A DNA stretch of 64,000 nucleotides from positions 1 through 64,000 of the forward strand of contig NZ_JABFVK010000076.1 in NCBI RefSeq assembly GCF_013362815.1, given 5' to 3'. The notes under the pieces were generated by a model that saw only the letters and a list, made by a program, of their open reading frames with translations, was not told the origin of the DNA and ran no database searches. This document shows positions 5,913-53,826 of this stretch, one piece after another (position 1 is the first letter of the stretch; the number at the start of each line of letters is the position of its first letter). The position numbers were made by a program, and so were the translations under genes. The DNA comes from Hamadaea sp. (GTDB taxonomy: Bacteria; Actinomycetota; Actinomycetes; Mycobacteriales; Micromonosporaceae).

Positions 5913-5950
5913 ACGCTTCCGACGGCTTTCAACAAGATCGGCTTTCAACA

Positions 5951-6002
5951 AGATCAGCGGAGTTTTCGTGGGGTCATGACCCCGCAAAAACTCCGCTGAT
6001 CT
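5951..6002. repeat. GATC-tipped palindrome, family D copy 1 (possible bidirectional terminator)
   Basis: AGATCAGCGGAGTTTT pairs with its complement at the other end around an inner GGGGTCATGACCCC palindrome. It lies between convergent genes, so it may end both transcripts, although no T-tract follows. A diverged relative sharing the GATCAGCGGA core lies at 9413-9480. Confidence 0.75.
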
Positions 6003-6016
6003 TCGTCTGGATCGGT

Positions 6017-16667: not shown

Positions 16668-16687
16668 GCGGTCCGCCCTTGGGCACC

Positions 16688-16742
16688 GGATCACGGTTCT
16701 GGGTCGAATCTTGGGGTGAGATTCGACCGCGAACCCTGATCC
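16688..16742. repeat. GATC-tipped palindrome, family B copy 1
   Basis: GGATCACGGTTC at the left and GAACCCTGATCC at the right tip a 55-bp palindrome whose inner arms are GGTCGAATCT and AGATTCGACC. Family B also occurs at 21849-21912, 40251-40316 and 53115-53173. This copy is between convergent genes. Confidence 0.8.
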
Positions 16743-16746
16743 AGCA

Positions 16747-19766: not shown

Positions 19767-19940
19767 CATGACCTCCCCAGCGCGGCCCCTCGAGCCTGTC
19801 GTCGGTGGACGCAGAAGCGCCGCAGGGCAGACTACCCCGCGGCGCAAAACGGCGGCCACGCGTGGCGCTCGCGCTCGCTGCGCTGGACGTTCGGCGCTCG
19901 CCCCGCTTGCGCGGCCGCTGCGCTCGGCGCCCTCAGCTGC

Positions 19941-19994
19941 GGATCACGGATATCCATGCTTCCCGAGCCCAGGAAGCATGGATATCCGTGATCC
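19941..19994. repeat. GATC-tipped palindrome, family A copy 1
   Basis: Two perfect 23-bp arms (19941-19963 and 19972-19994), beginning GGATCACGGATATCC, flank an 8-nt loop. It lies downstream of the ABC permease stop and upstream of the mycosin-like gene on the same strand. The rest of 19770-20047 shows no gene. Confidence 0.85.
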
Positions 19995-21848: not shown

Positions 21849-21912
21849 GCGCTGGATCAGGGTTCTGGGTCGTATTCCGGTCAAGATTCGACCCAGAACC
21901 CTGATCCAGCGC
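21849..21912. repeat. GATC-tipped palindrome, family B copy 2, with duplicated left tip
   Basis: The tips are GCGCTGGATCAGGG and CCCTGATCCAGCGC, with inner arms related to GGGTCGAATCT/AGATTCGACCC. An extra copy of the left tip (GCGCTGGATCAGG) stands at 21833-21845, the same type of left-arm duplication seen at 40219. A short array of AGCGCCCAA-type repeats follows to 21948. Confidence 0.8.
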
Positions 21913-24445: not shown

Positions 24446-24519
24446 CGTCGCGTTGATCATGAACCTAGGGTTCCACTTAAGGCCTTATGTGGAACCCTAG
24501 GTTCATGATCAACGCGACG
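24446..24519. repeat. GATC-tipped palindrome, family C copy 2 (perfect 31-bp arms)
   Basis: Arms at 24446-24476 and 24489-24519 are fully complementary, starting CGTCGCGTTGATCATGAACC. The 12-nt loop TTAAGGCCTTAT is itself nearly palindromic. It follows the carboxylase alpha gene and precedes a WXG-like gene on the same strand. Confidence 0.9.
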
Positions 24520-28990: not shown

Positions 28991-29005
28991 GCGCCCGTTA
29001 CCTGG

Positions 29006-29061
29006 AGATCACGGTTATGCAGGCTTCCTAAGAGCCCGGGAAGCCTGCATAACCGTGATCT
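29006..29061. repeat. GATC-tipped palindrome, family A copy 2
   Basis: Arms of 23 bp at 29006-29028 and 29039-29061, beginning AGATCACGGTTATGCAGG, are perfectly complementary with a 10-nt loop. Compared with copy 1 (19941), several arm positions differ but both arms changed together, preserving pairing. It lies between convergent genes. Confidence 0.85.
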
Positions 29062-29066
29062 GGTGC

Positions 29067-29915
29067 CTACCGGAGGCGGGTGATGGTCACCGCGACCTGC
29101 TGTCCGGTCCCGCCCGCACCGGCGAACACCCCTTTGAGGGGTGGGACGTCGCCGTAGTCGCGACCTCGGCCGACGAGGACGTGACGTTCCCCGATGGGTA
29201 CGCCGTTCGTCGGGTCGAACGAGCGCCACTCGCCGGACCACCACTCGATCCAGGCATGGCTCTGCCCGACCACCCGTTCCCCCAGTGCGGCGTTCGGCGT
29301 CGGGTGCAGATACCCGGAGACGTAGCGTGCTGGTACGCCCATCGCCCGGAGCAGGGCGATCGCCAGGTGCGAGATGTCCTGGCATACGCCTTGGCGCTGG
29401 CGCCAGACCTGGACGGCGTCGGTGAGCACGCCCGTCGTTCCGGGCACGTATTCGATCTCTGTGCGGAGCATCTCGCAGACCGCTCGGGCGGCTTCGTCCG
29501 GCGTACGGTGAGAGCGGCGCAGTTCGGTCGCCGTCTCGGTGAGTTCGGCGTCCAGCGCTGTCCGGGGCGTGGACAACAGCAGTTCGGCCCATCGGTCGGT
29601 GATCGCTGGGGCGTTCACCTCCGCCCAACCTGGGCCGTCAGCGTGGACCGCAGCGGGGCTGGAGGTCTCCACCACCGATTCGGCCACGACTTCCAGGGTC
29701 GCGTGCGGAACGTGCACGTCGAACGCGGTGACCAAGGTGCCCCAGTAATCGTGGTACTGAAAGGTCCGCGCCGAGGGCCGGACGGCAACCGAGGATTGCA
29801 GGACGATCTGGCGGGCGTCGGTGCCGGGGACCATCCGGGCCTCGTTGTAGGAGGAGACCACCGGACCGGCGTATTCGAACCCGGTGTGGTGCTCGACGCG
29901 TACTCGCCAGCCCAT
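29067..29915 (-). CDS. Transglutaminase-like cysteine protease family protein
   Basis: 282 residues. The N-terminal half is a beta-rich transglutaminase N domain (RVEHHTGFEYAGPVV). The catalytic core shows the Cys in RQGVCQDISHLAIALLRAMG (about residue 175), the His in GQSHAWIEWW and the Asp in FDPTNG, as in COG1305 proteins. ATG 29915 overlaps the previous stop by 1 nt (TGATG), so it is coupled to the alpha-E gene. This trio (ATP-grasp, alpha-E, transglutaminase) is a widely conserved bacterial cassette predicted to form and cleave peptide bonds; its substrate is unknown. Confidence 0.92.
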   Translation of the reverse strand: MGWRVRVEHHTGFEYAGPVVSSYNEARMVPGTDARQIVLQSSVAVRPSARTFQYHDYWGTLVTAFDVHVPHATLEVVAESVVETSSPAAVHADGPGWAEVNAPAITDRWAELLLSTPRTALDAELTETATELRRSHRTPDEAARAVCEMLRTEIEYVPGTTGVLTDAVQVWRQRQGVCQDISHLAIALLRAMGVPARYVSGYLHPTPNAALGERVVGQSHAWIEWWSGEWRSFDPTNGVPIGERHVLVGRGRDYGDVPPLKGVFAGAGGTGQQVAVTITRLR

Positions 29916-30853
29916 CACGCCACCGCCTTCGCGCTCCAGGCGACTGCCGCAGTCTGCCGGAAGTATCGGCCCGAGACCGCCTCGTTCACCTGGGAGCAGC
30001 TCCGCTCCAGGCCGGCGAGGACGGCCGGGAGGTCGTCGAGCAAGTGATCCGGCGACCGGTACGCGAGATCGGTGCGGGCGCGGCCGAGGATGCGCTGTGC
30101 TTCGGTGCCGACACCGACGCGGCCCCGGCCCGGCTCCAACTCGGCCAGGCAGTTCTCGGCACTGACCAGCGCGGCCAGCACCGATCGCGGGAACAACCGG
30201 TCCAGCAGCAGGAACTCGGCTGCGTGCCGATCGCTCAGCGACCCGCGGTACGTCCGTAGATAGGTCTCCCAAGCGCCGCAACTTCGGAGCAGCATCAGCC
30301 AGCTCGGGATGCTGCCGCCGGCTCGCGTATGCGTCGACAGCAGGCGGGCGGTCATGTCGACCCGTTCCACACTCCGGCCGAGCACCAGGAACAGCCAGCC
30401 TTCGTCACGGCTCATCGTGGCGTCCGCCAACCCGGCCAGCACGCTGCATCTTTCGCGTACCCATTGGAAGAAGGCGTGCACGCCGCGGACCTCGATCCGC
30501 GCGCGGGCGTCGCCCAGACCGAGCCACGTGGTGTTGAGGCATTCCCACATCTCGGAGCTGACGGTCTCGCGGCAGCCGCGGGCGTTCTCCCGCGCGGCGG
30601 CGAGCGCGCCGAGGACCGAGCTGGGGTCGCCGCGGTCGAGGCCGAGCCGTTCGACGACGGCGGTCAGACCCACGGCCTCCTGCGCGACCTGCACGCCCAT
30701 GACGGACAGCAGGGAGCGGCAGGCCCGCTCCTCGTCGGTCCACGGATCCTGCAGCATCCGGTGCAGGTGGACGTCGAGAATGCGCGCGGTGTCCTCGGCC
30801 CGCTCGACGTAGCGGCCGATCCAGTAGAGCGACTCGGCGATGCGGCTCAGCAC
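29915..30853 (-). CDS. Alpha-E domain-containing protein (DUF403)
   Basis: 312 residues, GTG start. It begins with the family signature MLSRIAESLYWIGRYVERAEDTAR and is predicted entirely alpha-helical, with RDEGWLFLVLGRSVERVDMTARLL in the middle, a second copy of the E-R-x-D/E pattern. The role is unknown; it is always found beside circularly permuted ATP-grasp enzymes, here overlapping that gene by 7 bp and the transglutaminase gene by 1 bp, so the three proteins are probably produced in fixed proportion. Confidence 0.92.
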   Translation of the reverse strand: MLSRIAESLYWIGRYVERAEDTARILDVHLHRMLQDPWTDEERACRSLLSVMGVQVAQEAVGLTAVVERLGLDRGDPSSVLGALAAARENARGCRETVSSEMWECLNTTWLGLGDARARIEVRGVHAFFQWVRERCSVLAGLADATMSRDEGWLFLVLGRSVERVDMTARLLSTHTRAGGSIPSWLMLLRSCGAWETYLRTYRGSLSDRHAAEFLLLDRLFPRSVLAALVSAENCLAELEPGRGRVGVGTEAQRILGRARTDLAYRSPDHLLDDLPAVLAGLERSCSQVNEAVSGRYFRQTAAVAWSAKAVA

Positions 30854-32412
30854 GACGTCACCGCCTGCTGCTGTTGCTGTTGCTGCTGCGCCAGGCCGCC
30901 GATGCCCGGGCCGGGATCCGGGAGGGCCGATTCCAGCGGCGGCGGCTCGGGCGCGCGCTGCATGGGCACCGGCATCCCGGACTCCGTGACCACCCAGGTG
31001 TCCTTGGAACCGCCGCCCTGGCTGGAGTTCACCACCAGCGCACCCTCCGGCAACGCCACCCGGGTGAGCCCGCCCGGCAGGACCGATATGGTCGTGCCGT
31101 CGTTCACCGCGAACGGCCGCAGATCGACGTGCCGCGGCCGCAACCGGTCGCCGATCAGCGTCGGCACGGTCGACAGGCGTACCTCGCGTTGTGCGATCCA
31201 GCCGCGCGGGTCGACCTCGATCCGCTGGGCGACCGCCGCCAACTGCTCCTCGGTCGCGGCCGAGCCGATCACGATGCCCGCGCCGCCCGACCCGTCGACC
31301 GGCTTGAGCACGAGCTGATCCAACCGGCTCAGCACGTCGGCGCGAACCTCCGGGTCGTCCAGCCGATAAGTCTCCACATTGGGCAGAATCGGCTCTTCGT
31401 TGAGGTAGTAGCGGATGAGGTCCGGCACGTACGTGTAGAGCAGCTTGTCGTCGGCGACGCCGTTGCCCACGGCGTTCGCGAGCGTCACCTTGCCCGCGCG
31501 CGCCGCGTTGAGCAGCCCGGCACAGCCCAGCACCGAATCCGCGCGGAACTGCACCGGATCGAGGAACTCGTCGTCGACCCGCCGGTAGATCACGTCCACC
31601 CGCCGCTCACCCGCCGTCGTGCGCATGGCCACCTCATTGCCCACGCAGATCAGGTCCCGGCCCTCGACCAGCTCGACGCCCATCTCCCGGGCCAGCAACG
31701 CGTGCTCGAAATAAGCAGAGTTGTGTACGCCGGGAGTCAGCACCACGACCGTCGGTTCGTCCATCCCCGACGCCGCCCGCAATGCTCGCAGCAACAGCGC
31801 CGGGTACGCCTCGACCGGCTGAATGCGGGTGGCCGCGAATACCTCGGGCAGTACGTGGGCCATCGCACGACGGTTCTCCATCACGTAGGAGACCCCGGAC
31901 GGGATGCGTACGTTGTCCTCCAGGACTCGGAAGTCGCCTTGTTCGTCGCGGATCAAGTCCACGCCCGCCACGTGGACGCGTACGCCGTTGGCGGGGACGA
32001 CTCCGGCCGCCTCTCGGTGAAAGTGGGCACTCGTCACCACGAGACGGCGCGGCACCACCCCGTCGGCGAGCACCTGACCCGGTCCGTAGACGTCGGCCAG
32101 AAACGCCTCCAGCGCGCGTACGCGTTGGACCACACCGGATTCGACGTGCCGCCACTGAGCGGCGGCGATGATCCGGGGGATGATGTCGAGCGGGAACGGC
32201 CGCTCGACGCCGCCGAGAGCGAACGTGATGCCCTGGTCGAGGAAGGCCCGGGCCAGCACGTCGGCCCGGACCCGCAGATCGCTGCCGGCGAGCGGCCGCA
32301 AGGTGGCGTGCAACGCGTCGTAGTCGGCGCGGGGAAGACCGGGGGCGTCGAACATCTCGTCCCAGACGGTCCCGGGCGCGCCGAGCGGGTAGTCCTCGAA
32401 AAGGTCCGCCAT
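30847..32412 (-). CDS. Circularly permuted type 2 ATP-grasp protein
   Basis: 521 residues. Features of the COG2308 family include VLTPGVHNSAYFEHALLA, DVIYRRVDDEFLDP, VANAVGNG-like LANAVGNGVADDKLLYTYVP and LVLKPVDGSGGAGIVIG (nucleotide-binding strand and glycine loop). ATP-grasp enzymes ligate a carboxylate to an amine. The extreme C-terminus carries eight consecutive glutamines before AVTSC; this CAG/CAA run lies in the 7-bp-overlap zone with the alpha-E gene and is unusual in a bacterial enzyme. The ATG lies 6 nt behind a TAGCGT box. Confidence 0.93.
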   Translation of the reverse strand: MADLFEDYPLGAPGTVWDEMFDAPGLPRADYDALHATLRPLAGSDLRVRADVLARAFLDQGITFALGGVERPFPLDIIPRIIAAAQWRHVESGVVQRVRALEAFLADVYGPGQVLADGVVPRRLVVTSAHFHREAAGVVPANGVRVHVAGVDLIRDEQGDFRVLEDNVRIPSGVSYVMENRRAMAHVLPEVFAATRIQPVEAYPALLLRALRAASGMDEPTVVVLTPGVHNSAYFEHALLAREMGVELVEGRDLICVGNEVAMRTTAGERRVDVIYRRVDDEFLDPVQFRADSVLGCAGLLNAARAGKVTLANAVGNGVADDKLLYTYVPDLIRYYLNEEPILPNVETYRLDDPEVRADVLSRLDQLVLKPVDGSGGAGIVIGSAATEEQLAAVAQRIEVDPRGWIAQREVRLSTVPTLIGDRLRPRHVDLRPFAVNDGTTISVLPGGLTRVALPEGALVVNSSQGGGSKDTWVVTESGMPVPMQRAPEPPPLESALPDPGPGIGGLAQQQQQQQQAVTSC

Positions 32413-35933: not shown

Positions 35934-36878
35934 ATGTTGGTACGCCGAAAGACCGTAGCGCTCGCGTTGGCGGGCCTGGCGCTGGTGTTCGTCGCAGGTT
36001 GTGGCGCCAGCGATAAGAACTCGTCCGACAGTGGTGGAGCCGCTCCGGCGGTCAACCCGGAGGGCGTTGGGGACCTCGGGGCGAAAACCGCCAACGGGGC
36101 CGATCAGAGCACCACAAGCGGGCAGGGCAGCGGGCAGGTTCCCGAGGTGGGCCGGGCGATCGTCTACAACGGGCAGATCACCGTACGCGTCGACGACGTC
36201 GAGCTGGCCGCGCAACGGGTCCGGTCGGCCGCCACCGGTGTCGGCGGTTTCGTGGGCTCGGAGAAGAGCACCAGCGGGGGTTCCCGGGCGCAGTCCTCGA
36301 TCACGATCCGGGTGCCGGCCGACAAGTTCGACTCGGTCCTGGCCGACGCCGCCAAGCTCGGCAAGGAACTGGACCGCTCGGTGAACGCCGAGGACGTGAC
36401 GGCGACAGTCGTGGACTTGGAAGCCCGGATCAAGGCGCAACAGGCCAGTGTGGACAGCGTACGCCGGATGTTCGCGCAGGCCACGAAGCTCACGGAGATC
36501 GTGCAGCTCGAGCAGGAGCTGTCTCGCCGGCAGGCCGAGCTGGACGCCTTGCTGGCCAAGCAACGCCGCCTCGACGACCTCGTGAAGCTGTCCACCATCA
36601 CGGTGACGCTGGTCGGCCCGGATACGCCCTACGTGGAGCCCAAGACCGAGGATCCGTCGTTCTTCGGCGGGCTGAAGGCCGGCTGGAACACCTTCGTCGT
36701 CATCCTGAAGGTGGCGTCGGCCGTCCTCGGCTTCCTGCTGCCGTTCCTGATCGTCGCGGCCGTCGTCCTGGTGCCGCTCTGGTGGCTGCTCCGGCGTCGC
36801 CGGACCGCCCGACCGGTCGCCGTTGATCAAGGAGTCAAGGACGTCGACACGCCGACAGACGGAACCTTGGGTTCATGA
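35934..36878 (+). CDS. DUF4349 domain lipoprotein
   Basis: 314 residues. A signal sequence ends in the lipobox LVFVAGC. The DUF4349 domain begins with IVYNGQITVRVDDVE, has SSITIRVPADKFD and AEDVTATVVDLEARIKAQQASVDSVRRM, and then a predicted coiled coil (about 165-215). A C-terminal membrane helix (about 250-280) follows with a short basic tail. The last ~18 codons and the stop codon lie within the family C palindrome at 36822-36883, so the natural C-terminus was probably altered by that element. Function unknown. Confidence 0.85.
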   Translation: MLVRRKTVALALAGLALVFVAGCGASDKNSSDSGGAAPAVNPEGVGDLGAKTANGADQSTTSGQGSGQVPEVGRAIVYNGQITVRVDDVELAAQRVRSAATGVGGFVGSEKSTSGGSRAQSSITIRVPADKFDSVLADAAKLGKELDRSVNAEDVTATVVDLEARIKAQQASVDSVRRMFAQATKLTEIVQLEQELSRRQAELDALLAKQRRLDDLVKLSTITVTLVGPDTPYVEPKTEDPSFFGGLKAGWNTFVVILKVASAVLGFLLPFLIVAAVVLVPLWWLLRRRRTARPVAVDQGVKDVDTPTDGTLGS

Positions 36879-36883
36879 TCAAC
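36822..36883. repeat. GATC-tipped palindrome, family C copy 3, overlapping a gene end
   Basis: GTTGATCA and TGATCAAC tips; the right half keeps the family sequence GGAACCTTGGGTTCATGATC while the left half is diverged. The stop codon of the DUF4349 gene (36876-36878) is inside its right arm. Confidence 0.7.
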
Positions 36884-36886
36884 GCT

Positions 36887-40218: not shown

Positions 40219-40316
40219 GCGCTGGATCAGGGTTCCGGGAACTCCTTCGGGCGCTGGATCAGGGTTCCGGGCCGAAATCTTGGGTCAAGATTCGACCGCG
40301 AACCCTGATCCAGCGC
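40219..40316. repeat. GATC-tipped palindrome, family B copy 3, with tandemly duplicated left arm
   Basis: The palindrome proper is 40251-40316, with tips GCGCTGGATCAGGGTTC and its complement. Its left arm with flank (about 32 bp, starting AACTCCTT) is duplicated immediately upstream, giving an extra tip at 40219-40238. It lies in the divergent gap between the mutase and kinase genes; the rest of 40144-40501 shows no gene. Confidence 0.85.
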
Positions 40317-44663: not shown

Positions 44664-44697
44664 CCCCACCCCGCCCTTTCCGCTCGCCCTCTCCGCC

Positions 44698-44787
44698 CGC
44701 ACCCTTCCCCGCCGCACCCTTCCCCACCGCACCCTTCCCCACCGCACCCTTCCCCGCCGCACCCTTCCCCACCGCACCCTTCCCCGC
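44698..44787. repeat. Tandem array, six copies of a 15-bp unit
   Basis: Six head-to-tail copies of CGCACCCTTCCCC(G/A)C, varying only at one position (G or A). It directly abuts the left arm of the long inverted repeat. Confidence 0.9.
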
Positions 44788-44788
44788 C

Positions 44789-44968
44789 GATCATGAACTA
44801 TCGGCCATGATCGGCCGACGTGTCGTGTTCCAAGCTCCCTGATCAACTCCGCATCACCATGATCGACATCCACCTCGTCTAGCCGAAGTCGATCAGGCAC
44901 TCGGGGGAGTGATCATGCCGGCGGGGACACGACACGCCGGTCGATCATGGCGACAAGTTCATGATCGC
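44789..44968. repeat. Long imperfect inverted repeat (~180 bp)
   Basis: A left arm starting GATCATGAACT (44789-44832) and a right arm ending AGTTCATGATC (44923-44966) share blocks GATCATGAACT, GCCATGATCG and CGTGTCGTGT in inverted order. The central ~90 bp has further GATC-containing half-palindromes. The right arm runs directly into the 24-bp array. Confidence 0.85.
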
Positions 44969-45096
44969 GCGGAAAGGACCGGGGCTGATCGCGCGGACAG
45001 GACGGGGGCAGATCGCGCGGAAAGGAGGGGGGAGATCGCGCGGAAAGGACGGGGGCAGATCGCGCGGACAGGACGGGGGCAGATCGCGCGGAAAGC
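44963..45096. repeat. Tandem array, about 5.5 copies of a 24-bp unit
   Basis: The unit is GATCGCGCGGAAAGGACGGG plus GGCA; copies begin at 44963, 44987, 45011, 45034, 45058 and 45082. They alternate GGAAAG and GGACAG. The array is G-rich on the plus strand. Confidence 0.9.
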
Positions 45097-45136
45097 AGCT
45101 GAGGGTGAGCGGCGGCGGAGCCGAGGCGGGCGGAGA

Positions 45137-50458: not shown

Positions 50459-52135
50459 ATGCGGCCTTTCGATCCTCGGCTGCTCCGGGCGGCTCCGGCG
50501 GCCCGGGGTGACGCGGCGCTGCTCGCGGCGTCCGGCGTCGGCGTGGCAGTGGCCGCGGTCGGTTCGGCGTACGCCTTGGCGCGGACGCTCGCGGCGGCCG
50601 CGGACGGCCGGTTGGACACGGCCGCCCTGGCCGGCTTCGTCGTCGCGCTCGGTCTACGCGCACTGCTCGCCGCGGCGAGCGGGCTGGCCGCGGCCCGCAT
50701 GTCGGCCACGGTCAAGGCGCAGCTCCGCCACGATCTGCTCCAGGCGGTCGGCGACCGGGGCCCGGCCTGGCTCACCGGGCAACGCGCGGGCGAGCTGGCG
50801 ACCCTCACCGGTCGGGGGCTCGACGCGCTCGACGGCTACTTCACCGGCTACCTGCCGCAGTTGATCCTCGGCGTCACCGTCCCGGCGGCGGTGCTGATCA
50901 CCCTGGCGTTCAGCGATCTGACGAGCGCGATCATCGTCCTCGTAACACTGCCGCTGCTGCCGATCTTCGGCATCCTCATCGGGTGGCAGACCCAGTCCGC
51001 CACGGAGAAGCAGTGGCGGCGACTGCAGCTGCTCGGCGGCCATTTCCTGGACATGGTGGCGGGCCTGCCCACGCTGCGCGCCTTCGGCCGCGCGCAGGCT
51101 CAAGTCACCGCAGTACGCAAAATGGCCGACCAGCATCGGATCGCCACGATGCAGACGTTGCGGATCGCCTTCCTCTCGGCGCTCGTGCTGGAACTCGTCG
51201 GCACCATCTCGGTCGCCCTCGTCGCGGTGCCGGTCGGGCTCCGGCTGCTCAGCGGCGGCCTCACTCTTTCCACCGCGCTGCTCGTGCTGCTGCTCACCCC
51301 CGAGGCGTACGCCCCGCTCCGGGCGGCGGGCAGCCGGTTCCACGCCAGCATGGAAGGGCTGACCGCGCTCGACCAGGCGTTCACCCTGATCGGCTCGGCT
51401 CAAGATCAGCACCAGATCACGGATACGCAGGCTTCCGAGGCCTCAGATGGCCTGCGTAACCGTGATCTGCAGGAAAAGACAGTGGCGCGGCTCGACCGCG
51501 TGACGGTCGAGTACGAGCGGGGACCGGCGCTTAACGACGTCAGCCTCGACATCCGGCGCGGCGATCGGATCGCGCTCGTCGGCCCGAGCGGCGGCGGCAA
51601 GACCACCCTCGTCGGGCTGCTGCTCGGCTTCGTCACGCCGACGTCGGGAGCCGTGCTCCGGTCGGCGGAAGACCTCGAAGTGTGGCGACGCAAACTCGCC
51701 TGGGTACCGCAGAAGGCCCACCTCTTCGCGGCCACCCTCGCCGAGAACATCGCTCTCGGTGCACCCGACGCGACTCAGGTCGAGATCGAGGCCGCCGCGA
51801 AAGCCGCCCATCTCGACGAGGTCGTCGCCAGCCTGCCGGCCGGACTCGACACGCCCCTCGGCGAGCGCGGTCACGGCCTGTCCAGCGGGGAACGTCAGCG
51901 ACTTGCCCTGGCCCGCGCCTTTCTGCGTACTCATAGTGAATTGATCTTGTTGGACGAGCCGACCTCGCGCCTGGACGCGAAGAGCGAGCAGGCGGTGATC
52001 GACGCGACCGAACGCCTGGTCGCGGGCCGGACCGCGGTGTTCGTGGCGCATCGGCCCGCGATGCTGCGGCTGGCCACGCGGATCATCCACGTCGAGGACG
52101 GACGCCTGACCGAACGCGCGGCGGTGACGGCATGA
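50459..52135 (+). CDS. cydD: Thiol reductant ABC exporter subunit CydD, with in-frame palindromic insert
   Basis: 558 residues. A six-helix membrane domain (1-320) is followed by an ATPase domain (about 345-558) with Walker A GPSGGGKTT, signature LSSGERQRLALA and Walker B LILLDEPTSRLD. CydDC is a heterodimeric exporter of thiols (and haem-linked functions) needed to assemble bd oxidase, consistent with cydAB upstream. Codons for about residues 319-337 (TDTQASEASDGL...) are a family A palindrome (51413-51469), placed between the membrane and ATPase domains without disturbing the frame. ATG 50459 lies 23 bp after cydB. Confidence 0.93.
   Translation: MRPFDPRLLRAAPAARGDAALLAASGVGVAVAAVGSAYALARTLAAAADGRLDTAALAGFVVALGLRALLAAASGLAAARMSATVKAQLRHDLLQAVGDRGPAWLTGQRAGELATLTGRGLDALDGYFTGYLPQLILGVTVPAAVLITLAFSDLTSAIIVLVTLPLLPIFGILIGWQTQSATEKQWRRLQLLGGHFLDMVAGLPTLRAFGRAQAQVTAVRKMADQHRIATMQTLRIAFLSALVLELVGTISVALVAVPVGLRLLSGGLTLSTALLVLLLTPEAYAPLRAAGSRFHASMEGLTALDQAFTLIGSAQDQHQITDTQASEASDGLRNRDLQEKTVARLDRVTVEYERGPALNDVSLDIRRGDRIALVGPSGGGKTTLVGLLLGFVTPTSGAVLRSAEDLEVWRRKLAWVPQKAHLFAATLAENIALGAPDATQVEIEAAAKAAHLDEVVASLPAGLDTPLGERGHGLSSGERQRLALARAFLRTHSELILLDEPTSRLDAKSEQAVIDATERLVAGRTAVFVAHRPAMLRLATRIIHVEDGRLTERAAVTA
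51413..51469. repeat. GATC-tipped palindrome, family A copy 3, inside cydD
   Basis: CAGATCACGGATACGCAGGC and its complement near the right end (one mismatch) with an ~16-nt centre. It is 57 bp, a multiple of three, and is translated as part of the CydD linker. It is related to the intergenic copies at 19941 and 29006. Confidence 0.85.
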
Positions 52136-53826
52136 GGTGGGATCTATTTCGGCCGATGCTGTGGCGTCTGGGCGGCGCAGGGCTACTCGCGACCGTCACG
52201 GAACTGTCCGGCCTGGGGCTCATGGCCACCGCGACGTGGCTGCTCATGACCGCGGCCGGCCAGCCGCCGATCACCGCGCTCACCGTCGCCATCGTCACGG
52301 TCCGGGCGCTGGCGATCTCTCGGGGAGCTTTCCGGTACGCCGAACGCCTCGCCGGGCACGACGCCGTGCTTCGCATCGTGACCGAGGTACGCGCGCGGGT
52401 GTTCGCGAACCTCGCGAGCCGGCCTGAACTAGTCGCACGCCGGGGTGACGCACTGTCGCGCATGGTCTCCGATGTGGACGCCGTGCAGGACCTCGTCGTA
52501 CGCGTAGCGCTCCCGGCCTTCGCGGCGACGCTGGCCGGTGTGGTGGCGGTGGCCGCCGCGATCGCCGTCGACCCGCTCGCCGGACTCGTCCTCGCGGTAG
52601 GTCTCCTGATCTGCGGCCTGCTCCTCCCGGGCCTGGCTGCCCGGTTGACCGCCTCCGCCAGCGCGACCTTGGCCCCGCTACGGGCGGCGTACTCGGTCGC
52701 CACCATCGACCTCGTGCACGGGGCGGCCGACCTGGCCGCGTTCGGGGCGCGCGCGTCCTTCGAACAATCCGCCGCAGCCACCGCATCCGAGCTGGCCGCA
52801 GTGGAGAAGCGCCTGGCGCGGCAGGCCCTCGGCGTCGACCTCCTCGGTTCGCTCGTGATCGCCGCTACCGCTGCCGGTGTGGTGCTCGTTGCGCTCGCGC
52901 GCGACGTCCCCGGGGTGTGGATCGGCGTGCTCGCCGTCGGCACTCTCGCCGCCGGCGAGATCGCCTTGTCGCTGGTCGCTGCCGCTCGGAAGCGCTCCGA
53001 GATCTCCGGGGCGCTCGCTCGCCTTCGGCCGCTCCTCTCCCCCGTGCCGTCCGGCGCTTCGGCCGCGTCCGCCGCTCCGGGCGCGTCCGCCGCTCCGGCC
53101 GCGCAAGATCCGCGCTGGATCAGGGATCAGGGTCGAATCTTGGTCCAAGATTCGACCGAGAACCCTGATCCAGGGCCGATGCCACCGACGCCGCCAACGC
53201 CGCAGGCGATGGAGCTGGACGCCGTAACGGTCCGCTACCGGGAAGGTGGCGCACCCGCGCTCGAACACTTCTCACTCAGCCTGCCGCCGGGGTCGAAGAC
53301 CGCCCTCGTCGGCCCGAGCGGAGCCGGCAAGTCCACAGTGCTCGGTCTCCTCGCCGGTGCGATCCAACCCAGCGACGGCGTGGTTCGGTACGCCGGCGAG
53401 CCGCTGCCGGAGGAGGCGTACGAGCTGGTGGGTGGGCTTTTCGCCGATGCCGCCGTGTTCCATGCGAGCGTGCTGGAGAACGTGACCCTGGGACGTCCGT
53501 CCACGATGGAGGAACGCGCCGCCGCCGCCGAGGCCGCAGGGCTGCTCGACTGGATCGAAGCGCAGCCGGACGGCTGGGACACGCTGGTCGGCGAGGAGGG
53601 CGCGGCGATGTCGGGCGGTCAGCGGCAACGGCTGACGCTGGCGCGAGCACTGCTCCACGCGCCGCCGGTGCTGGTGCTGGACGAACCGACCGAAGGCCTC
53701 GATCCGGTGCACGCCGACGAGGTGCTGCGCCGAGTGCTCGCGTACGCGGGCGACCGGACGGTTGTCCTGGTCACGCACCGGACGGCCGAGACGAGCGCTT
53801 TCGACACGGTCGTCCGGCTCACGTGA
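52132..53826 (+). CDS. cydC: Thiol reductant ABC exporter subunit CydC, with in-frame palindromic insert
   Basis: 564 residues; ATG overlaps the cydD stop (ATGA). Six membrane helices (1-300), an Ala/Ser-rich linker, and an ATPase domain (about 360-564) with Walker A GPSGAGKST, signature MSGGQRQRLTLA, Walker B VLVLDEPTEGLD and switch His VTHRT. It forms the exporter with CydD. The linker includes a GAS-AAP repeat (residues ~305-322) and a translated family B palindrome (53115-53173) that encodes about WIRDQGRILVQDSTENPDP. Confidence 0.93.
   Translation: MRWDLFRPMLWRLGGAGLLATVTELSGLGLMATATWLLMTAAGQPPITALTVAIVTVRALAISRGAFRYAERLAGHDAVLRIVTEVRARVFANLASRPELVARRGDALSRMVSDVDAVQDLVVRVALPAFAATLAGVVAVAAAIAVDPLAGLVLAVGLLICGLLLPGLAARLTASASATLAPLRAAYSVATIDLVHGAADLAAFGARASFEQSAAATASELAAVEKRLARQALGVDLLGSLVIAATAAGVVLVALARDVPGVWIGVLAVGTLAAGEIALSLVAAARKRSEISGALARLRPLLSPVPSGASAASAAPGASAAPAAQDPRWIRDQGRILVQDSTENPDPGPMPPTPPTPQAMELDAVTVRYREGGAPALEHFSLSLPPGSKTALVGPSGAGKSTVLGLLAGAIQPSDGVVRYAGEPLPEEAYELVGGLFADAAVFHASVLENVTLGRPSTMEERAAAAEAAGLLDWIEAQPDGWDTLVGEEGAAMSGGQRQRLTLARALLHAPPVLVLDEPTEGLDPVHADEVLRRVLAYAGDRTVVLVTHRTAETSAFDTVVRLT
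53115..53173. repeat. GATC-tipped palindrome, family B copy 4, inside cydC
   Basis: CTGGATCAGGG and CCCTGATCCAG tips, with inner arms GGTCGAATCTTGG and its complement; GGATCAGG is partly duplicated at the left tip, as in copies 2 and 3. It is wholly within the coding region of cydC. Confidence 0.85.

Follow-up and report, generated by a model that had tools for sequence, protein, structure and literature searches.

Inserts in the linkers of CydD and CydC

The window analysed here, a 64,000-nucleotide stretch of the genome (G000) of a Hamadaea, a soil actinobacterium, contains the neighbouring genes cydD and cydC, each of which carries a palindrome that is translated as part of the protein:

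50459..52135, + strand: cydD, 558 aa; ABC_membrane at residues 35-278 and ABC_tran at 358-503 (Pfam)
52132..53826, + strand: cydC, 564 aa; ABC_tran at residues 377-520 (Pfam)
51413..51469, + strand: family A palindrome in cydD, 57 nt, in frame; peptide QITDTQASEASDGLRNRDLQ; 53-nt core at 51415-51467
53108..53180, + strand: family B palindrome in cydC, 73 nt, in frame; peptide (QDPR)WIRDQGRILVQDSTENPDPG; 53-nt core GATCAGGG..CCCTGATC

The presence of in-frame palindromes in both genes, as in the original prediction, was confirmed. The arms of the cydD inverted repeat (51413-51432/51450-51469) are 20 nt long and 95% complementary; those of the cydC repeat (53108-53143/53145-53180) are 36 nt long and 86% complementary. 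The cydC palindrome is thus longer than the span of 53115-53173 first assigned to it, and the 5' flank CAAGATCC is found just upstream, as in the extended form of B. The CydD and CydC profiles match solved CydD and CydC chains respectively, in each case among many ABC transporters. The inserts occupy residues 319-337 of CydD and 326-350 of CydC and so precede ABC_tran, which begins at 358 and 377, in agreement with the proposed location in the interdomain linker. In Pfam searches ABC_tran lies downstream of the insert in both proteins and the ABC membrane region of CydD lies upstream; the equivalent region of CydC scored below the Pfam cut-off. Two AlphaFold predictions, made from 4 and 3 sequences, had a mean pLDDT of about 40 and are unreliable.

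The lengths of these linkers outside Hamadaea range widely, from 10 to 70 aa in CydC (71 loci) and from 14 to 128 aa in CydD (72 loci), and the joint therefore appears to be generally tolerant of insertion. Linkers were cut from 83 loci; the weak hits L122-L140 were excluded, and L064 and L144 are duplicates. The CydD linkers of Planotetraspora (6/6 loci: L085, L095, L096, L101, L105 and L120; e.g. L101:4105-4230) contain in-frame GTGATCATGCAC units at a spacing of 51 nt. This unit is a dispersed repeat in all three Planotetraspora genomes searched; in the one other array inspected, the spacing is 52-53 nt. It appears to be another instance, unrelated to that of Hamadaea, of a dispersed repeat occupying the CydD joint.

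A dispersed superfamily of palindromes

Four genomes were compared: G000 (7.45 Mb in 124 contigs), G001, G002 (a Hamadaea MAG) and G003 (Hamadaea tsunoensis DSM 44101). Three nucleotide profiles (A, B and C) were used for a census of 2.05 Mb of G000, including the window, in which a codon-usage script called 1799 genes. Absence of the palindromes from the rest of the genome had been named as a sign against repeat insertion; the census found 140 elements (40 A, 62 B and 38 C). It is clear that they avoid genes: 129 are intergenic, 7 lie inside called genes (one of them, on contig C44, in a doubtful gene call) and 4 run across a gene end, in sequence that is 87.2% coding. The intergenic elements favour convergent and tandem gaps and shun divergent ones, with 52 convergent, 68 tandem and 9 divergent against 157, 532 and 297 among gaps of at least 60 nt (chi-square p about 2e-13). 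A loose search of the whole of G000 gave 244 B and 115 A candidates, of which 40 each were scored. Furthermore, 80 strong palindromes were found in 1.26 Mb of G000, 31 of them on contig C56, compared to none in each of three first-order Markov sequences derived from C56.

Families A and B had been described as unrelated, a view that had to be abandoned. Both have GATCASGGWT ends and a core of 53 nt, less often 52, running from GATCASGG to CCSTGATC (53 nt in 72 of 95 anchored A/B copies), and A/B mosaic copies exist. On the basis of these shared ends, cores and mosaics, A and B form one superfamily. Family C, mostly 58 nt long with TGATCATG ends, is separate from it. At an E-value of 1e-4 family B was detected in 4/4 Hamadaea genomes and in 0/117 other sampled genomes of the bacterial family; family A has many copies in G000, G001 and G002 but almost none in G003 (one weak match).

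The remaining A and B copies of the window are intergenic, as had been noted; they are listed here with family C and with what was seen at each A and B place in G001:

19937..19994, - strand: family A copy, intergenic; an A/B hybrid (by eye) at the same place in G001
29003..29062, + strand: family A copy, intergenic; family A after the same upstream gene in G001
16684..16746, - strand: family B copy, intergenic; also B in G001
21849..21912, + strand: intergenic copy of family B; G001 lacks an element here
40251..40316, + strand: intergenic copy of family B, accompanied by a partial additional arm (40222-40242); G001 lacks an element here
2020-2082, 24451-24514 and 36821-36884: family C palindromes, one overlapping the end of a gene

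When nine window places other than the linkers were compared between G001 and G000, the same family was present at five; profile or clustering assigned three of these, and the two others were C-like on visual inspection. One place in G001 has a hybrid, again judged by eye, and the remaining three lack all of these families. The C profile gave no matches in 200 kb of G001, although two elements there were judged C-like by eye. At the empty G001 sites the flanks are too diverged for edges or a target duplication to be defined.

Several further features of the window were recorded. At 24451 a B-like element in G003 takes the place of the family C palindrome of G000. Another palindrome family (AAGATCAGCGGAG..), at 5950-6003, is kept at the same place in G001 despite diverged flanks. 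One intergenic gap holds two tandem arrays, at 44672-44791 and 44939-45122, with units of 15 nt and of 24 nt (GATCGCGCGGAMAGGACGGGGGCA), and three genes at 29067-32412 were found in G003 and were unmatched in the 200-kb G001 stretch.

Coding copies and their variation among Hamadaea genomes

The palindromes are not unique to cydDC, since in-frame internal copies also occur in other genes of G000: a B copy in a UvrD/PDDEXK helicase (contig C30; L269:1272-4628, - strand), one lying between the start of an ABC ATPase and its LSGGQ signature (C49), and copies in two multi-span membrane proteins, named by eye (C28 and C108). A further possible case is the FAD oxidoreductase at one end of contig C32, where an open frame runs from the contig edge across the element but the script places the start of the gene after it. 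C-terminal read-ins were seen on C22, C31, C83 and C26 of G000, and one was seen in G001. All of the genic copies found are placed in linkers, loops or gene ends. These in-frame copies are a lower bound, as 150 of 692 and 150 of 309 candidates were scored in G000, and 59 loci and 40 short stretches were inspected. Most long open frames across elements were discarded as antisense or spurious on codon usage.

Ten genic cores from five genes in the four genomes (nine firm, with that of the FAD oxidoreductase possible) are all 53 nt long and read in one codon phase. The C32 and C49 copies are no evidence for this shared phase, as they were found by a peptide query in that phase. In the frame-agnostic 2.05-Mb sample, leaving out the doubtful C44 copy, the hydrophilic open frame is used by 6/6 credible A/B genic copies. 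Of 95 copies, 61 also have a second open frame, and the idea that coding copies use the hydrophilic frame only was rejected: the B copies in the two membrane proteins (L382:309-375 and L394:307-382), both from outside that sample, are read in the other open frame, as GSGF.VESW..IRP..VIQR.

The type of palindrome at a given linker differs between genomes. The CydC linker holds B in G000, a B-like element in G003 and A in the other two genomes; that of CydD holds A in G000 and a decayed A in G001; that of the helicase holds B in G000 and A in G001. G003 has no element in either its CydD or its helicase linker, so that empty linkers do exist in a relative. In G002 the contigs with cydD and the helicase gene both break off at the linker, which would agree with the presence of a repeat but proves nothing. 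Outside the linker, CydC differs by 12.7% between G001 and G002, by about 16% for G000 and by about 29% for G003, on this one gene. Since G001 and G002 are closest on CydC, the simplest history of its linker would be an ancestral B followed by A in the ancestor of these two genomes. The CydC element of G003 is 88-92% identical to at least 39 other places in G003 (40 scored of 301 candidates); its identity is 90-92% to three inspected G003 copies and about 70% to the CydC element of G000. Taking the linkers together with the nine window places compared in G001, coding copies seem to turn over much like the others.

The inserted peptides are not visibly constrained, as there is no third-position bias inside the elements. 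Differences at the three codon positions number 16, 16 and 13 (45 in total) within the elements of three gene pairs, compared to 176, 118 and 489 (783 in total) outside the linkers of the same pairs; the third-position share is thus 13/45 inside and 489/783 outside (Fisher p about 1e-5). From these codon counts, purifying selection on the inserts is not apparent. Among the ten genic cores the paired fraction of the arms lies between 0.54 and 1.0; for comparison, the median of 94 intergenic copies is 0.81. The fraction is 0.54 (14/26) in the CydD element of G001 and 0.58 in the G001 helicase. Therefore, the hairpin is not maintained in every genic copy. Strong paired evolution of the arms was also rejected: double arm changes across paralogous copies number 39 in A and 32 in B, against shuffle means of 31.8 and 26.0, and both lie under the shuffle maximum. 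This slight excess over the shuffles speaks against any strong arm-to-arm correction.

Origin of the inserts and comparison with known repeats

The inserts are probably copies of the GATCA-ended palindromic superfamily, mobile or copied by conversion, which are tolerated in linkers and loops and perhaps replaced in place by another type. A superfamily with a core of 53 or 52 nt and GATCASGGWT at both ends would spread through the genomes of Hamadaea, or be copied there by conversion. Where it entered a gene it would mostly be lost; copies with an open frame would survive in interdomain linkers, loops and C-termini, where they would be translated as about 20-25 spacer residues. Tolerated insertion of a repeat was one of two explanations originally offered, and the empty G003 linkers, together with the placing of the genic copies in linkers, loops and gene ends, favour it. 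The other, a selected effect in which mRNA hairpins delay ribosomes as they pass from the membrane domain to the ATPase domain of either subunit, or in which the inserted peptide regulates the transporter, is very improbable. It is true that the element is found in both subunits in G000 and G001 and in CydC of all four Hamadaea genomes, and that another dispersed repeat occupies the CydD linkers of Planotetraspora. Of the three firm internal copies that the 2.05-Mb sample contains, two fall in the partner subunits, a heavier clustering than random insertion would predict and a point against the tolerated-insertion reading; the window was chosen for these inserts, yet G001 carries the element in both subunits too. 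Against a selected role, CydD of G003 lacks the element, the arms of the G001 CydD copy have decayed, the codons carry no third-position bias, double arm changes are close to the shuffles, and the same superfamily is found in an unrelated helicase and other proteins. A cydDC-specific role or a selected translational pause thus finds no support, and CydDC function would be unaffected by the inserts.

It is harder to decide how the types came to differ at one linker. Replacement in place would account for the CydC and helicase differences, and it agrees with the gap-free alignment of the CydC A and B peptides within the element (I330, Q339, D340 and D346 are common to all four genomes), with the mosaic copies and with the single hybrid judged by eye at an orthologous site between genes. 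In G001 and G002 the CydC elements have a CAAGAT centre, which also looks B-like and occurs in 1 of 40 sampled A copies of G000; it counts for little, since other A copies of G001, G002 and G000 have CAAGAT too. Alternatively, the two types may be separate insertions into the same permissive linker, a serious possibility that we place a little below an even chance; the wide length ranges of the CydC and CydD linkers would allow it, and at 3 of 9 comparable window places the element is present in G000 and not in G001. Copying between the adjacent cydD and cydC genes by gene conversion, in place of two arrivals from elsewhere, is conceivable given that their inserts share frame and core length, and in G001 the two agree at 49/60 positions in the same frame. 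Such copying is nevertheless unlikely: the types in the two G000 genes differ, there is no clear sharing of flanks, and the inserts of unrelated genes use the same frame, so that a shared frame does not require it. If replacement in place is right, a process recognising the GATCA ends and the fixed 53-nt core might swap palindrome types at fixed sites, both genic and intergenic, via an enzyme or conversion. Coding copies would then track the repeat pool of each species, a concerted evolution running through protein-coding linkers; we put this forward tentatively, as less likely than not.

As no transposase or parent transposon was found, and no target duplication or exact empty site was defined, we infer movement of the repeat rather than observe it. 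There were no matches to the Y1 transposase family PF01797 in G000 (a 97.5% complete draft), with a control positive in 5 of 14 known genomes, and a REP/RAYT origin was rejected on this ground. A search for parent transposon ends gave one lone half-arm and no inverted half-arm pair in 2.05 of 7.45 Mb (28%) of G000. Neither GTAG nor CGTC was seen by eye at the arm ends of A and B copies, which read GATCASGG. Within the literature library searched, no paper on Hamadaea repeats or on actinobacterial coding palindromes was found.

Rickettsia palindromic elements (RPEs) were reportedly described by Ogata et al. in 2000 and 2002. According to one review, RPEs are about 150 bp long and nearly half lie in ORFs (PMC10969869); a second source has them ending in CGTC (PMC3733652). 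Like RPEs, the Hamadaea repeat is a dispersed palindrome that occurs in frame within unrelated genes and is translated there; it differs in its 53-nt core, its arms with GATCA and the proportion of copies that touch genes (11 of 140 sampled). GTAG- and CGTC-tagged REPs, according to PMC3733652, lie mostly between convergent or tandem genes, with a few inside ORFs that include UvrABCD and recBCD genes; REP-tagged repair genes are reported there for other bacteria, and its authors suggest that linkers or loops may tolerate intragenic REPs. The word Actinobacteria is absent from the main text of that paper. The Hamadaea repeat likewise favours convergent and tandem gaps and has a few copies inside ORFs, whereas neither tag was seen at its arm ends and its genome has no Y1/RAYT match. 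Bacterial MITEs, as treated in the review PMC10969869, are also short, high-copy inverted-repeat units that can fuse in frame to genes; in contrast, the Hamadaea element is palindromic almost throughout. No parent transposon was found for it in the 28% of G000 sampled, and no target duplication at the diverged G001 sites.

The Hamadaea linkers offer a natural test of the exchange of short palindromes in place, and suggest that transporter and helicase linkers and loops are safe landing sites; such inserts should not be taken for functional loops. Protein-coding palindromes are best known from Rickettsia, and Hamadaea provides an actinobacterial example in which the peptide is apparently unconstrained, empty sites occur and the repeat type differs at two orthologous linkers. 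By comparison with these systems, the repeat is best read as being of the same general kind as RPEs and intragenic REPs, the difference of type at fixed coding sites being unusual.
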